Shown here: positions 49,442 to 56,345 of the stretch, in pieces
Layout: each line of letters starts with the position of its first letter
Position numbering within the stretch: position 1 is the first letter of the stretch
DNA from: Deltaproteobacteria bacterium
GTDB lineage: Bacteria; Myxococcota_A; Polyangia; JAAYKL01
Reading direction: 5' to 3'
DNA length: 64,000 bases
Assembly: GCA_030595125.1 (NCBI GenBank)
Contig: JAUVDV010000002.1
Span: 1 to 64,000 of the forward strand
Notes under the pieces: model-generated
The model's database searches: none
Told to the model about the DNA's origin: nothing
The model's input: the letters and a program-made list of their open reading frames with translations, nothing else
Made by a program: the position numbers and the translations under genes

Positions 49442-50542
49442 ATGCAGCGTTATACCCAGATTCCCGAGACCTCAATTATTGTGTTCAGCCTGACAGTCCT
49501 TCTGCGCCTGGGCGTTGGCAACGCCGCCGACTTGCAGGAGATCTCCGCGAAGGACGGCTCGGCGGATAGACCGGTCTTGGTCGTCTTCCTGGTGACGGAC
49601 AGCGCCGAGGACAGGACACGTGAACAGCGCTTCGTCAATCAACTGAGGCTGGCCCTCGATGACTTCGACATCGAGCCCGTCGAGTTGAGCGTCGAGGAAT
49701 ATGAGTTACTGCCACTGTACCGGAAGCTGGCTCTGGTCAGGAAGCATTCCGACCGGCTCGATGCTGTGGCCACAACCTGGCTCGAGAACGCCGGCGCGGA
49801 TACCGTCATGCTCCACATGGTGGCCCTGAGCACGGGACGCGCGTTCGTCCGCATAGTCGAGGCGCACAGGGGTCCGGCCGCCGAAGAAGAACTGGCCTTT
49901 GCGGCCCAGGAGCTGATCGGACAGGTCTACATGCTCAGCCCGCCTCATGATGGCCGACCCGTGGAGCGAGCGGTTGAGGCGGTGTTGGAGGAAGCCGTTT
50001 CGCTGAGAGAACCACAGGTGGATCTGGGCTGGGCGGTCATGCCGTTTTTACGAGTGAGCGGAGGTATCTGGGGACACAAGGGGCAGTGGTTCAGGTTTGG
50101 CGGCGGAATATCCCTGGAGGCTCGGGTGGCGGAGCATTTTCATCTAGGGGCCTCTCTGGCTGGTTTGGCCGGGCCGTTCCATGAGCCGCACGACGGAGTG
50201 GTACGCGGCTGGGGATTGATGCCTGGTCTCCACTTCGGATTCGACTGGACCGCAGGTTTCCTCAGGATCGGCCCTGTAGTGGGAGCTTCGCTCGTTCGCT
50301 CCATTTTTTATTCGACCATGGGAACTGGTGATAGTCAGACCTATAGTTGGTGGGACTTCCGGGGCTCACTCGGAATCGACCTGAGCTGGTCTCTGAAGAA
50401 GGTCGTGTCCATTGTGGCTACCCCTTCGGTGGGTGTTTGGACCAACCACCGAACCTTCGTGAGGATATCGGACGATAGCAACATCATTTCGTCACCTCTC
50501 GTCGACTGGAGTTGCACTCTCGGACTGTCGATCCCCATATGA
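49442..50542 (+). CDS. Envelope beta-barrel-like protein (module 2)
   Basis: A 366-residue protein with a signal-like N-terminus and a C-terminal half of amphipathic strands (GGGISLEARVAEHFHLGASLAG, LGIDLSWSLKKVVSIVATPS) ending LGLSIPI. The layout resembles the module-1 gene at 41916. Its stop overlaps the ECF sigma gene (ATGA), tying it to the sigma/FecR pair. No Shine-Dalgarno was seen; an upstream GTG at 49436 is an alternative start. Confidence 0.65.
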   Translation: MQRYTQIPETSIIVFSLTVLLRLGVGNAADLQEISAKDGSADRPVLVVFLVTDSAEDRTREQRFVNQLRLALDDFDIEPVELSVEEYELLPLYRKLALVRKHSDRLDAVATTWLENAGADTVMLHMVALSTGRAFVRIVEAHRGPAAEEELAFAAQELIGQVYMLSPPHDGRPVERAVEAVLEEAVSLREPQVDLGWAVMPFLRVSGGIWGHKGQWFRFGGGISLEARVAEHFHLGASLAGLAGPFHEPHDGVVRGWGLMPGLHFGFDWTAGFLRIGPVVGASLVRSIFYSTMGTGDSQTYSWWDFRGSLGIDLSWSLKKVVSIVATPSVGVWTNHRTFVRISDDSNIISSPLVDWSCTLGLSIPI

Positions 50543-51225
50543 CCAGGCCTCGCGCAGGGAACATTTTGGGGCCGACACGCAATGTTACTTACAAGAAAGA
50601 TGAACATCGGGAGAAATTGAGAGACCGCACCAGCAATTCGCCAGAAACGTACTCTGACGAGCAACTGATGTCTCGCCTGGCAGGCGGTGACATGGATGCC
50701 CTTGGACTGCTGTATGAACGTCACGACGGTTTGGCCAAAGCCGCAGTGAGCAGGTTGGCTCCGGAGATCCCCATAGCCGAGATCGAGGAGCTGGTTCAGG
50801 ACGTCTTCCTCGCTCTGAGTAGCACTGCGAAACGGTTTCCCCAGAGCGCGGGGCTCAGGCCATGGCTGTACGGGATTGCCGCTAACAAGGCCCGGCTCTG
50901 GCGGCGCAAGACCTGGCTGCGTCGGCGGCTTCTCGAACAGCACCACGGAGTCGGTGTGGGGCTTGCTCTGCGGACCAATGCCTCGCCAGCTGACCGGGCC
51001 GAGTTCAGGGAGACAATCTCCCAGGCGCTGTCGAGCCTCCCACAGAGCCAGCGGGAGGTCCTCTTGCTGCATGCAGCGGAGGGCTTCAAGGGCGAGGAGA
51101 TCGCACGGATCCTGGGGATTAGACACAAGACGGTCCGCACCCGTCTCCATCGCGCCCGAAAGAAGCTGTTGTCGGAAATGCGCGCCTGCGATGTTTCCGA
51201 AACATTAAAGAGGGAAAGAAGATGA
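50539..51225 (+). CDS. ECF-type sigma factor (module 2)
   Basis: A 228-residue ECF sigma with region 2 (ALGLLYERHDGLAKAAV, EELVQDVFLAL) and region 4 (LPQSQREVLLLHAAEGFKGEEIARILG). Coupled upstream to the envelope gene and downstream (ATGA) to the FecR-TPR gene. The order differs from module 1, in which the envelope gene is last. Confidence 0.88.
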   Translation: MTRPRAGNILGPTRNVTYKKDEHREKLRDRTSNSPETYSDEQLMSRLAGGDMDALGLLYERHDGLAKAAVSRLAPEIPIAEIEELVQDVFLALSSTAKRFPQSAGLRPWLYGIAANKARLWRRKTWLRRRLLEQHHGVGVGLALRTNASPADRAEFRETISQALSSLPQSQREVLLLHAAEGFKGEEIARILGIRHKTVRTRLHRARKKLLSEMRACDVSETLKRERR

Positions 51226-52724
51226 AATCTTGTGATCGATTCGACGAGTTCATGAGCAGCTATGGCAATGTCGATCAGCAGGAGGCTTTCGAGGCCCATC
51301 TCGCTGTGTGCCCCGACTGCGCCACCGCGTTGTCCGAGCTGAACGCGATCGAGAAGGAGCTATTCGTTATGGCGGCGCAAGGGGCGCAGGACCTGCAGTC
51401 CTGGAGCCCCGGGGCTCGCCAACGGCTGATCGAACGCGCCGCCGCACCTCGTCGGTGGCTACTACAGCGGGCGGCGGTGCTCCGCTGGGCGGCGGTTTCT
51501 GTCACGATGATCGCTGTAGTCGTGGGAGCATTCTGGGGAGTGATTCTACTGTCGCGGCAGGGCGAAACGGACCGTGGGCCAGTAGCCGAAAACGATCCGG
51601 GAGTTGCTCTTTCGGCTCAACTGTTCCTGGGTACCGGGGTCGAACCGGTCGCGGTGTCGTACAAACCGAGAATGCCGATCCGATCTCCGATCGGTGGGCG
51701 CATACTCATACACGTCGGCGAGGATCGGATCGGCCTTGACGGCGGAGGCGAGTTCCGTTTGGTCGAGGTCGATTCCACACGACGGCGCATCAGTCTGGAG
51801 AGGGGCACAGTCGCCTGCTTCGTATCTCACCGGACGAGGGGAGGCGAGTTCGTTGTCGAGGCCGGCCGGATAGAGGCGCGGGTTGTCGGCACCCGCTTCG
51901 CGATCACCCGGACAGACGCGGAGGTAGAGGTGCTGGTATCCGAGGGACAAGTGGAGGTAACCGCCCCGGAGCAAGAAGCGATATTGGTGGCTGCGGGCGA
52001 AGTACTGATCTTTTCAGCGGGTGGCGAAGCCGCTCCTGACGTATTGGACGACGGATCGAAAGAGTTGATCGAAAAACTTCTGAGCGATGCGATATCGTTC
52101 ATCCGCCATAGCCCGAAGGGCGACGGCGGGCAACGTCAGACGTCGGACGTCAATGTCGATGACGCTTGTCCGCCTTCGCGATCAAGAGGACAGGCTACGG
52201 CGGATGAACGAGACGTTACCGCCAAAGACCTGGACACCTTGCGCGGCTGGGTAATAGAGGGGCGACTCAAGGACGCCACGCGTGGTCTAAGAACCTACCT
52301 GAAACAGAAGCCAAAAGACCCGGATGCCTGGTTGTTGATGGCCGACTGCCAACGCAAGGCTGGTGGCTGGGCACAAGCAGTGGAGGCATACCGTCAGGTG
52401 ATCGCAGTAGCCCCCCTATCGCGGGCCGACTTGGCGCGGTTCAGGGCCGGGGCCATCCTCCAAGAGAAGCTGGGGAATCATCGGGAAGCGGTGAAGATGT
52501 TCAAGGCTTATCTGCAATCGGGCGACGGGAAAAAGTTCCGGGCCGAAGCCATGGTGCGGCTCGGACGCTCCCTGCTCGTGCTGGGCAGGAGGGGCGAGGC
52601 GAGCCGGACACTCGAGGAGGTGGTCGAACTTTACGGCGGCAACCCGGCGGTCATCGAAGCGCGGGATCTACTGGAGAGTCTGGGAAACGAAAAGATGGAA
52701 CATAATACCGATCTCGCGCAATGA
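51222..52724 (+). CDS. Anti-sigma FecR-domain protein with zinc-finger N-terminus and TPR tail (module 2)
   Basis: A 500-residue protein with an anti-sigma zinc-finger-like N-terminus (H-L-A-V-C-P-D-C, residues about 26-33), a transmembrane helix near 90-110, a FecR domain (FRLVEVDSTRRRISLERGTVACF, VVGTRFAIT) and a TPR region (LRTYLKQKPKDPDAWLLMADCQ, GNHREAVKMFKAYLQ). The zinc finger would bind the sigma factor. A 3'-terminal piece of this gene has been duplicated at 54540-54593. Confidence 0.87.
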   Translation: MKSCDRFDEFMSSYGNVDQQEAFEAHLAVCPDCATALSELNAIEKELFVMAAQGAQDLQSWSPGARQRLIERAAAPRRWLLQRAAVLRWAAVSVTMIAVVVGAFWGVILLSRQGETDRGPVAENDPGVALSAQLFLGTGVEPVAVSYKPRMPIRSPIGGRILIHVGEDRIGLDGGGEFRLVEVDSTRRRISLERGTVACFVSHRTRGGEFVVEAGRIEARVVGTRFAITRTDAEVEVLVSEGQVEVTAPEQEAILVAAGEVLIFSAGGEAAPDVLDDGSKELIEKLLSDAISFIRHSPKGDGGQRQTSDVNVDDACPPSRSRGQATADERDVTAKDLDTLRGWVIEGRLKDATRGLRTYLKQKPKDPDAWLLMADCQRKAGGWAQAVEAYRQVIAVAPLSRADLARFRAGAILQEKLGNHREAVKMFKAYLQSGDGKKFRAEAMVRLGRSLLVLGRRGEASRTLEEVVELYGGNPAVIEARDLLESLGNEKMEHNTDLAQ

Positions 52725-52917
52725 ATGATTCAAGCGGTGTTACTTGGGCGACAAATCACGATATCGGGCGCTCGAAAGGAATAAGGAAGAAACCCATGAG
52801 AACGATACAATTAGTAGTTGCTGGTGAGCTGATGGTTTTCGTCGCCCTGTTCGGGCTCGTACAGATCACTGGGTGCGAGGCAAAGGTCAGATTGGATGAC
52901 CTCGGCGATACGGACAC
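52671..52917 (+). repeat. Segmental duplication, original copy
   Basis: About 245 bp covering the end of the FecR-TPR gene, the spacer and the signal sequence plus linker start of the next lipoprotein. It is matched at 54540-54784 with scattered substitutions and small indels. Confidence 0.85.
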
Positions 52918-53662
52918 GGATACCGAAACCGATGGAGATCCGCTGCCACCGGCCTGGTTCCTGATGGATGCGGCTCGCATCGGTGACACCGACGAGGGTT
53001 GCGATCTCGACGGTGACGATGAGGTGGACAATCAGTTCAGTGTCATGGCGACCTTCATGGCCGACGAGGGGTACCTCGACGAGCACCTCAACGACAGCAT
53101 CGCGACCGACATCGACACCGGAGAGTTCCTCATAGTGATCAGCCTCACCGACCTCAACGACATGATCGACGACGCTTCGATCTCCACCAGCTTGTACGAC
53201 GGCAAGCTCGAGGATCAGGACGCCGGTGTGCCCGACGACCTCTACAGTGGACACGGCACCGTGCTCATCGAGGATGCGGCTAACGCCATGATCGAGGATT
53301 CAACCATCGCCTCCAGTCACCTCTCGATGCTGGTGGGCGAGATCACAATAGCTCTTTCGATAAACAGCAACCCGATCGATATCACCATATACAACGCTCT
53401 GCTGTCTGCCGACATCGATCCCCTGCCCGACGAAGAGATGCTCGAGGGCGGGATGACCGCCGGCACGATATGCGGCTCGGTCGACTGGAGCGATCTGGCC
53501 GATGGGCTGGCCCTGATACTGGAGTTGGAACAGACCGAACAGATGACCCTGTCGGCCTACCTAAAGAGCATCGCTGACATCGACTGCGAGGATACCGACT
53601 GCAAGCAGATCTCGATCGGCCTCCTCTTCTCTGCGGTCAGTGTGATCGCCACCGACCCCTGA
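52796..53662 (+). CDS. Lipoprotein with Asp-Thr linker (duplicated signal segment)
   Basis: A 288-residue lipoprotein (lipobox QITGC). Its leader and first about 40 codons match the lipoprotein at 54663, but the mature domains differ: this one is an acidic, beta-rich domain (DDEVDNQFSVMATF, SLTDLNDMIDD). AAGGA lies upstream. An in-frame ATG at 52721 overlapping the FecR stop is a weaker alternative start. Confidence 0.75.
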   Translation: MRTIQLVVAGELMVFVALFGLVQITGCEAKVRLDDLGDTDTDTETDGDPLPPAWFLMDAARIGDTDEGCDLDGDDEVDNQFSVMATFMADEGYLDEHLNDSIATDIDTGEFLIVISLTDLNDMIDDASISTSLYDGKLEDQDAGVPDDLYSGHGTVLIEDAANAMIEDSTIASSHLSMLVGEITIALSINSNPIDITIYNALLSADIDPLPDEEMLEGGMTAGTICGSVDWSDLADGLALILELEQTEQMTLSAYLKSIADIDCEDTDCKQISIGLLFSAVSVIATDP

Positions 53663-53755
53663 GCCCTCGGTCGTCGCCAGACGCCCGATCTCTGCCCGCA
53701 GACAGCTTCCGCATGACCAAGCCCCGTGTAGGGAAGGAAAAAAGGAGGAATGGAA

Positions 53756-54454
53756 ATGCGAGTAACAGTTAGGCTTGTTTGCATAATTGCAGCAATGCTG
53801 ATCATTGTGTCGGTTTTGCCGTACTGTGACAGTGATTCCAGACAGGGGTTCTCCAACTCAGATTCCGACTCGGACTCAGATTCAGATTCAGATTCCGATT
53901 CAGATTCAGATTCCGACTCGGAATGCGACAACCTCACGTGGGGTAATTCCTGGGTAATTGGCCAGAAGACTTTCAACTTCCAGATCGACGGGTATGCCGA
54001 CTCCGACGGAGATCACATCGTTGAGCAGACCGAAACCACCTTCTCTCTGGAGGACATGGCTTGTGCCGGAGAACAATCAGTGCTCCTGGTGTGGTCCAGC
54101 TGGTGCTCGACGTGACAGAGCGAAGTCGAGCAACTCAGTTGGGTTGAAAACAACACATCGGCCATTCATGCGGCAAAAGGCGTTGTTCTCGGAGTGGTGT
54201 ACGGGGAAAGTGACGGCAGTGCAGTCGACGTCAGTACGGCGTCAGCCTACTCCACGATCAATGAACAGATGGCAACCGACTTTGTCTCCGGCAGCGGCGT
54301 TTCGGACATTCTTCCGTTCATGGGCCTGGGTTCCATCCTGTTCCCCATCTATGCGGTGATCGATCTCCAGACAGCGGAATTGCTATATTACCAGAACGGA
54401 AACGGAAGCGGGCCGCAGGGATCCCTCGCATCTATCCAGCAGGCCAATCAGTAG
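53756..54454 (+). CDS. Candidate selenoprotein: thioredoxin-like lipoprotein with WC-S-T-(TGA)
   Basis: The ATG at 53756 has GGAGG seven bases upstream. After a hydrophobic signal and an Asp-Ser linker comes a redoxin-like domain: FSLEDMACAGEQSVLLVWSSWCST, then TGA (54113-54115), and the same frame continues QSEVEQLSWVENN ... LLYYQNGNGSG to TAG at 54452. The TGA sits at the second Cys of a W-C-x-x-C site, giving WC-S-T-U at residues 116-120. This is the signature expected of a CxxU selenoprotein. A nonsense mutation is the alternative. No SECIS could be confirmed by eye. Confidence 0.65.
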
Positions 54455-54539
54455 CGCCAAACGCCATTCTTTATTTCTGTGGGCTCATTCTGTTTTTTTT
54501 GAAGCTTCGGGGACCACTCCAAAGCTCGCGTTGGATTTG

Positions 54540-54593
54540 TTGGAGAGTCTGAGAAAAGGAAAGATGGAACATAACACCCATCTCGCGCAATGA
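54540..54593 (+). pseudogene. Fragment of FecR-TPR 3' end
   Basis: Codons LESLRKGKMEHNTHLAQ followed by a stop match the end of the FecR-TPR protein (LESLGNEKMEHNTDLAQ). There is no upstream coding sequence, so it is a stranded piece of the segmental duplication. Confidence 0.85.
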
Positions 54594-54784
54594 ATAATTC
54601 AAACGGTATTGTCTGGTAGACAAACCAAGAAATCGGAAGATCGAACGGAACAGGAGGAACTCATGAGGAAGATACAATTGGTAGTTGCTGATAAGTTAAT
54701 GATTTTTATCGCCCTGGTCGGACTCGTACAGATTATTGGGTGCGAGGAAAAGGTCAGATTGGATGACGTCGGCGATACGGACAC
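54540..54784 (+). repeat. Segmental duplication, second copy
   Basis: Matches 52671-52917 and carries the FecR gene end, leader and signal sequence in front of a different lipoprotein body. Confidence 0.85.
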
Positions 54785-56345
54785 CGCCACCGACACCGCC
54801 ACCGACACCGATGTGGATGGCGACACCGATGGAGACACCGATGGAGACACTGACACCGATACCAGCTACAACGGACCGCCGATCCCTGAAACTTGCGAGC
54901 AGGCGGCACAGATTCGCACCTCCGTGGGGTGCGACTTTTTCTCTGCCGATCTAGACAACTACGTCGACGCCGACCCGCTGACCTACGCGGTGGTGGTCTC
55001 CAACCCACAACAGGACAGTGACGCCACGGTACACATCGAGGATCTGCGCGGGCCCGGGGACTCCCTGCGCACCGTCCCGGGGATGGAGGCGATCCTCGCC
55101 CCCGGAGAACTGGTGATCTTCGAGTTGACCTGCGAAACCACTTGCCCCGAACAGACGACCAACATCAACCTGACCGGGCTAGGACCCAAGAGTGCCTTCC
55201 GGCTGCTCGCAGACGTGCCGGTGCTTGCCTATCAGTGGAACACTTACGGCACCGGTCTCGAGACCGTCGATGCGTCGTTGCTGCTCCCGACCACCAGCTT
55301 GGGCGATTTGTACATCGGCGCTGCCTGGAACTACGGTCCCTACACCAACGACCGTGCCTCCCTCACGGTGGTGGCCATAGAGGACGACACCTCGGTTACC
55401 TTCACACCATCGGTAGACATCCCGGCGAATGGCGCCGTCCCGGCGATGAGCGCGGGGATCGCGTCTATCGCGATTGGGTTGGACGCCTACGACGTGGTGC
55501 AGATCTCTCCAGCAGTAAAGAACGCTGAACTGAGCGGCACACTGATCTCGGCCACCAAACCGATCGCCGTCTTCGGTGGCCACTCCTGCGCGATGGTGCC
55601 CAACGACTCGTACTATGCTTGCGATCATGTAGAGGAGCAGCTGCTTCCGTTGGTAGCCTGGGGCTCCGAGAGCGTGCTTGCCCGCTACGCGATCCGCGAG
55701 GGTGCTACCGAGTTGACTGATCCGGCGCTATGGCGCATCATCGCCGGCACCGACGATATGACCGTCACCTTCGACCCGCCGGTGGCCGACGTCGCAGTTG
55801 GCAGCGCCTACCACTTTGACACCCAGGGTCAGATGCTCGAGTTTCAGAGCCCTATCGACCACTACGCCAGCGCGACCCTCGACAATCCTCCCGATCCGAG
55901 CGAACCCGAGGCGCCGTTCTTCGCGTTCCAGATGATGACCGGGCGGAACTACGTCGACGGATCGTTCCAACTAGGCGATCCGATGATGATGCTTTCGCCT
56001 CCAGCCGGCCAGTATCTCGATCGCTACGTGTTCAACACCGATAATAAATTCGATTTCGATTACGACCGCATTATCGTCGTGCGCAGTGCAGGAGTGTGGG
56101 TGGAGGTCGACTGCATCGGGATCATCGATGATAGCGTGTTCATGCCGGTCGGTTCGTCGGGCTGGGAGGTGGCACGGATTGACCTCGACAATCCGCTCGG
56201 CGTACCCGGCTGCATCGATGGAGCGCACTGGATCGAGGCCGGGCAGCCGGTCGGTTTGTCAGTTGTCGGTGAGGATTTCGCCAACTCGTATGGTTATCTC
56301 GGCGGCGTCGGCGTCAAGATGATAAACCCGGTGATCGTGGAATAA
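54663..56345 (+). CDS. IgGFc-binding-like lipoprotein with Asp-Thr linker
   Basis: A 560-residue lipoprotein (lipobox QIIGC) with an Asp-Thr/Ala/Gly linker (about 40-68) and a large domain matching the IgGFc-binding-protein N-terminal-like family: LTYAVVVSNPQQ, ADVPVLAYQWNTY, ASLLLPTTSLGDLY, KPIAVFGGHSCAMVP and CDHVEEQLLP. Members are secreted or surface proteins of Bacteria and animals; binding partners are mostly unknown. Strong AGGAGGA ribosome-binding site. Confidence 0.8.
   Translation: MRKIQLVVADKLMIFIALVGLVQIIGCEEKVRLDDVGDTDTATDTATDTDVDGDTDGDTDGDTDTDTSYNGPPIPETCEQAAQIRTSVGCDFFSADLDNYVDADPLTYAVVVSNPQQDSDATVHIEDLRGPGDSLRTVPGMEAILAPGELVIFELTCETTCPEQTTNINLTGLGPKSAFRLLADVPVLAYQWNTYGTGLETVDASLLLPTTSLGDLYIGAAWNYGPYTNDRASLTVVAIEDDTSVTFTPSVDIPANGAVPAMSAGIASIAIGLDAYDVVQISPAVKNAELSGTLISATKPIAVFGGHSCAMVPNDSYYACDHVEEQLLPLVAWGSESVLARYAIREGATELTDPALWRIIAGTDDMTVTFDPPVADVAVGSAYHFDTQGQMLEFQSPIDHYASATLDNPPDPSEPEAPFFAFQMMTGRNYVDGSFQLGDPMMMLSPPAGQYLDRYVFNTDNKFDFDYDRIIVVRSAGVWVEVDCIGIIDDSVFMPVGSSGWEVARIDLDNPLGVPGCIDGAHWIEAGQPVGLSVVGEDFANSYGYLGGVGVKMINPVIVE

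Follow-up and report, generated by a model that had tools for sequence, protein, structure and literature searches.

The locus described here raises the question of whether an in-frame TGA in the middle of a thioredoxin-like gene ends the protein or encodes selenocysteine (Sec). The gene lies in the window, by which we mean the whole stretch of 64,000 nucleotides that was analysed. Standard table-11 ORF calling ends its frame at 54115. When the frame is read through, the TGA becomes residue 120 (VLLVWSSWCSTUQSEVEQLSW) and is followed by 112 sense codons and a TAG, and the translation thus confirmed what an earlier note on this DNA had described, a frame open except for a TGA at the second redox Cys of a W-C-S-T-x motif. 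The gene very probably encodes an exported thioredoxin-like selenoprotein with the active site C117-S-T-U120 (Table 1). Frame conservation, Sec machinery, the family alignment, a positional swap of Sec and the predicted fold form the computational basis of this reading, from which we infer Sec insertion itself, lipidation, the chemistry and the substrates.

Table 1. Positions in the window of the probable selenoprotein gene, its parts and the flanking repeats.
Feature	Position	Strand	Basis or remark
Gene of the probable exported thioredoxin-like selenoprotein	53756..54454	+	232 aa if the TGA encodes Sec; homologues
Shine-Dalgarno AGGAGG	53743..53748	+	direct reading; 7 nt 5′ of ATG 53756
Hydrophobic N-terminal signal sequence ending at Cys24	53756..53827	+	LPYC, imperfect lipobox, Tyr at -1
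Ser-Asp repeat linker, from lipid-anchor region to redox domain	53858..53923	+	translation
Thioredoxin-fold (redoxin/TlpA-like) domain	53924..54451	+	weak PF08534/PF00578, AlphaFold2, Foldseek
TGC, first active-site Cys of CxxU	54104..54106	+	alignment A1; column is Sec in other TGA-bearing paralogues
In-frame TGA, probable Sec, second active-site position, predicted N-terminal edge of helix 1	54113..54115	+	translation, alignment A1, model
Putative bacterial SECIS hairpin CAACUC-AGUU-GGGUUG	54131..54146	+	21 nt spacing from TGA, loop from +22
Upstream copy of flanking repeat	52659..52931	+	80-85% identical to 54528-54798
Downstream copy of flanking repeat	54528..54798	+	80-85% identical to 52659-52931

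The TGA codon is identical in a paralogue in the same genome (G000:C200) and in orthologues in two other genomes (G001 and G002), which are 77-81% identical to the window copy, and it is kept in all four of these copies with Sec at the second position (CxxU), drawn from three assemblies. Among the four copies, dN/dS amounts to 0.13-0.48 upstream and 0.23-0.47 downstream of the TGA. Purifying selection acts on both halves of the gene, and the codons after the TGA behave as the normal continuation that had been claimed for them.

In regard to the machinery, the genes that a selenoprotein reading had led one to look for, selA, selB, selC and selD, are all present in the window's genome (G000, a 95% complete draft of 203 contigs), in which SelA, SelB, SelD and a tRNA-Sec with the anticodon tca were found. 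The SelD gene of this genome itself carries an in-frame TGA. At the same time, TGA is the ordinary stop in 6 of the 11 neighbouring genes, including the one just upstream, which rules out a reassignment throughout the genome. No SelA was found in G001 or G002, probably as a consequence of assembly incompleteness, because SelB and tRNA-Sec are present in both.

A SECIS element downstream of the TGA could be represented by a short hairpin with an AGUU loop. According to the published model of the bacterial element (bSECIS; quoted in PMC13188914), the loop has 3-9 nt with a G in its first two bases, the stem at least 4 bp and the spacing 16-37 nt; in our strict test, a hairpin energy of at most -7.5 kcal/mol was added. 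The window hairpin agrees with the rules for loop, stem and spacing (AGUU, 6 bp, 21 nt), and its loop and position recur in 4/4 CxxU copies, but the hairpin alone reaches only -4.7 kcal/mol, with -8.1 to -8.3 for the surrounding region, and so falls short of the threshold, which is attained by the hairpin alone in two of the four copies. Moreover, the 51-nt RNA downstream of the TGA in the window copy is no more stable than its shuffles (z 0.20), and its fold energy was for this reason left out of the evidence; the SECIS proposed for this copy would rest on conservation, not on stability. A comparison of synonymous sites within the hairpin carried no signal either way, with 4/4 codons invariant against 82/115 overall (p=0.32). 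An Rfam search of the window gave no match. Across the family, the strict test was passed by 26 of 49 TGA sites, by 0 of 7 sites in Cys homologues and by 84 of the 1990 TGA triplets in the window (4%). Most TGAs of family members are followed by a hairpin of this kind, its loop being either GGUU, placed at +17/18, or AGUU, placed at +22, +26 or +30. The mean [AG]GUU-hairpin score is 15.5 for CxxU and 12.7 for UxxC members, compared with 1.8 in dinucleotide shuffles, and 1.6 for Cys homologues, compared with 0.9 in shuffles. In both the AGUU and the GGUU class the base pairs of the stem vary in a compensatory manner; pair 3 of the AGUU class is CG, AT, GC or TA in 14/14.

All genomes compared are draft assemblies. 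When the full-length protein was used as a query, many matches were confined to the Ser-Asp repeat, and the core alignment A1 was therefore used instead. As a query for the contig search A1 was too divergent; A2, used next, found five loci in the assemblies CSMAG_220 and CSMAG_2956, in which CSMAG stands for cold-seep MAG. The A1 search covered 14 genomes from the taxonomic family of the window's genome, of which eight had matches at E <= 1e-5. Extraction and de-duplication left 4 CxxU, 44 UxxC and 17 Cys members, which were used for the tree; a few of the Cys members belong to the same class but lie outside this taxonomic family, and two doubtful matches, L103 and a second weak one in L055, were excluded. 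At the CxxC columns, the 48 or so TGA-bearing members line up with the 17 Cys members; the residues that homologues show at the redox positions are Cys or Sec, as a selenoprotein reading needs. TGA-bearing members occur in six of the 14 genomes, all with SelB and tRNA-Sec, and the numbers of Sec and Cys members differ strongly among them: 6 and 2 in G000 (the window gene being one of the six Sec paralogues), 5 and 1 in G001, 7 and 2 in G002, 22 and 3 in G003, 1 and 1 in G006, and 7 and 2 in G007. None of the seven SelB-negative genomes of the taxonomic family holds a TGA-bearing member. G009 has SelB, yet only a Cys member. Outside the taxonomic family, matches in the class (318 genomes) and in the phylum (379 genomes) had no internal stop; scoring there covered only the top candidates of each genome. 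The 22 Sec paralogues of one redoxin family in the single draft G003 lie at L006, L044-L058, L061 and L097-L102; in one of them (L046:913-1431, minus strand) UxxC is replaced by UxxxC (UGALC).

The position of Sec within the motif divides the family. In alignment A1, the TGA stands at the first Cys column in nearly all paralogues (UxxC, for example SUPSCPSW) and at the second in the clade of the window protein, comprising four proteins. In the tree, the CxxU proteins form one group (support 100/97) inside the part dominated by UxxC, which makes a direct shift from UxxC to CxxU likely, not proven, as the deeper forks of the tree are poorly resolved. Alternatively, Sec could possibly have been lost via a Cys form and then regained. 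The nearest relative of the CxxU clade, its sister in the tree (L057, G003:C129), has lost both redox positions (WATTN).

Several other explanations of the TGA have to be weighed. As a real stop, it would mark a pseudogene with a nonsense mutation, or a truncated secreted protein; this is what the table-11 ORF implies at face value, and the unexceptional stability of the RNA downstream of the window copy agrees with it. Such a stop is nevertheless hard to reconcile with the same TGA in four diverged copies under purifying selection beyond it, with about 45 paralogues having TGA at the redox Cys column, and with the association with SelB. It would also cut the thioredoxin fold just before helix 1 of the AlphaFold2 model, in agreement with the earlier expectation of a protein cut in mid-fold, and altogether we consider a real stop highly improbable. 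Slightly less probable still is that TGA is recoded to Cys or Trp through an altered code or a tRNA variant: Cys would work functionally, given that homologues have it at position 120, but TGA terminates neighbouring genes, the SelA/B/C/D set is full, with a tRNA-Sec of anticodon tca, and TGA members are confined to SelB-positive genomes. In a 203-contig draft, an error of assembly or sequencing might be suspected of having changed TGC or TGT into TGA, but the codon recurs in G001, G002 and the second locus of G000, in four copies from three assemblies, which effectively refutes it and leaves it a negligible probability. A changed genetic code, an assembly error and a pseudogene were thus rejected on the TGA stops nearby, the recurrent TGA and the purifying selection. 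The selenoprotein proposed in the earlier note is supported by the sel genes, the Cys/Sec homologues and the recurrence of the TGA.

What such a selenoprotein would do is suggested by its fold. The redox domain of ~175 residues, with the motif W-C-S-T-U, scores below the Pfam gathering cut-offs (22.6 vs 26.6 bits for PF08534, Redoxin, and 20.0 vs 26 bits for PF00578, AhpC-TSA), and its best NCBIfam match is DsbE (TIGR00385), at 19.8 bits against a cut-off of 123 bits. AlphaFold2 on 26 sequences gave a model with pLDDT 77.6 and pTM 0.79. In model numbering, a strand at 67-73 precedes the C76/U79 pair, which opens the first helix (80-91); a CxxC-type pair is thus predicted after a beta strand and at the N-terminus of the first helix, as in the thiol-disulfide oxidoreductase fold. 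The top solved structure in Foldseek is 4nmu, a thiol-disulfide oxidoreductase (prob 1.00), followed by AhpC and peroxiredoxins. The role is likely to be thiol-disulfide or peroxide redox chemistry outside the cytoplasm, at the surface. That the selenoprotein carries out peroxiredoxin-like peroxide reduction instead of thiol-disulfide exchange is the less likely alternative, although one with appreciable weight: most Foldseek matches after the first are AhpC or peroxiredoxins, and PF08534 and PF00578 are the nearest profiles, but WCxxU resembles TlpA, DsbE and ResA, not peroxiredoxins, and both the best NCBIfam match and the top fold match belong to the thiol-disulfide side.

That thioredoxin-fold proteins can contain Sec, in CxxU and UxxC motifs among others, is already well known (PMC13188914, PMC1794560). 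Redoxin-family selenoproteins (PF08534, UxxC) and TlpA-type/thiol-disulfide isomerase-like ones (cd02966) likewise have a thioredoxin fold with Sec for an active-site Cys (PMC13188914), but they are listed with first-position Sec or as UGC, whereas the window protein has CxxU, a Ser-Asp linker and scores below the Pfam cut-off. DsbE/CcmG, ResA and StoA (TIGR00385, NF002854, NF041202) share the strand-helix WCxxC motif and the fold, but with Cys only. Second-position Sec is likewise found in the Trx7/PDZ selenoprotein (NF041199) and in SELENOW-like and AhpD-like proteins (PMC13188914); NF041199 is absent among the NCBIfam matches of 26 members, and the SELENOW-like and AhpD-like CxxU selenoproteins are different families. 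The selenoprotein-linked redoxin models NF040769 (SelL-related) and NF053656 (TUGYCR motif) weakly match 2-3 of the 26 members, with best E-values of only 5e-4 and 9e-3, and family members are not assigned there. No family member passes a curated Pfam or NCBIfam cut-off. Judged by the libraries that were searched, three things are new: the family itself, the number of its copies in a single genome, and the occurrence of Sec at either redox position among its members, bearing in mind that absence from Pfam/NCBIfam does not prove a family undescribed. What is unusual about the window protein is CxxU where its paralogues are UxxC, together with the size of the expansion.

It had also been proposed that the protein is a lipoprotein, and that an extracytoplasmic location is unusual for a Sec thioredoxin. 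A lipobox was accepted with G/A/S at -1 before the Cys. Canonical boxes are found in many paralogues (LSGC, MVAC, MVGC), and lipoproteins are likely for the family; the box of the window copy is imperfect. Within the family export is the rule, and Ser/Thr/Asp-rich linkers are present in most members. A literature search for exported lipoprotein selenoproteins returned nothing relevant. In the window, the selenoprotein gene has a lipoprotein gene on either side, the 5′ ends of these two being duplicated, and the ~270 bp repeat pair suggests a segmental duplication of these ends around it. The lipoprotein-like gene at 54609-56345 has a strong match to the IgGFc_binding domain (PF17517, E 1.8e-64) and a Thr-Asp linker. 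Directly 5′ of the lipoprotein cluster, an ECF-type sigma factor gene is followed by a gene for a FecR-domain/TPR protein (50512-52724), and this pair possibly regulates the cluster.

Two genomes, G003 (C30, C341, C441, C421) and G007 (C97, C114), hold two SelA, two SelB and two tRNA-Sec each (loci L148-L152, L140, L145), and in both, one set is clustered as selA-selB-selC. Between the two clustered sets, SelB identity is 59%; compared with the SelB type of the window's genome it is about 33%, falling to 15-21% in the C-terminal third. It is this C-terminal third of SelB that binds SECIS. The AGUU(+30) hairpin class was found only in G003 and G007, and its association with the extra set is a correlation across two genomes, for which contamination of the drafts (4% and 6%) could be a source. 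A scenario that we put forward only tentatively, and regard as rather doubtful, is that the exported redoxin family radiated mainly as selenoproteins, that Sec changed position, from UxxC to CxxU, along with a recoding hairpin that fits the UGA at its new place, and that the extra SelB in the two genomes may read the AGUU(+30) class, giving two partly separate Sec-insertion systems per cell.

For the window gene, the ribosome would read the UGA as Sec, which SelB would bring in on tRNA-Sec under the direction of the putative hairpin. The product would be exported and probably lipid-anchored via Cys24, on its Ser-Asp linker, and its Cys/Sec pair would most likely form a selenenylsulfide, acting outside the cytoplasm in thiol-disulfide exchange or in the reduction of peroxides. 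The host is an uncultured sediment bacterium, the named relatives of which come from cold-seep sediment, and the family is lineage-specific, with Sec usually at the first position and at the second in the four-member clade. Table-11 calling cuts the genes of this family at the TGA and, across six genomes, would overlook some 48 genes for selenoproteins, with 22 in a single genome; by comparison, the two largest complete selenoproteomes of bacteria comprise 57 and 63 genes (quoted in PMC13188914). The family allows Sec at one position of a redox motif to be compared closely, in natural proteins, with Sec at the other and with Cys, which is relevant to the question of why Sec is employed, and the genomes with two divergent Sec-insertion sets represent a test case for SelB-SECIS specificity.
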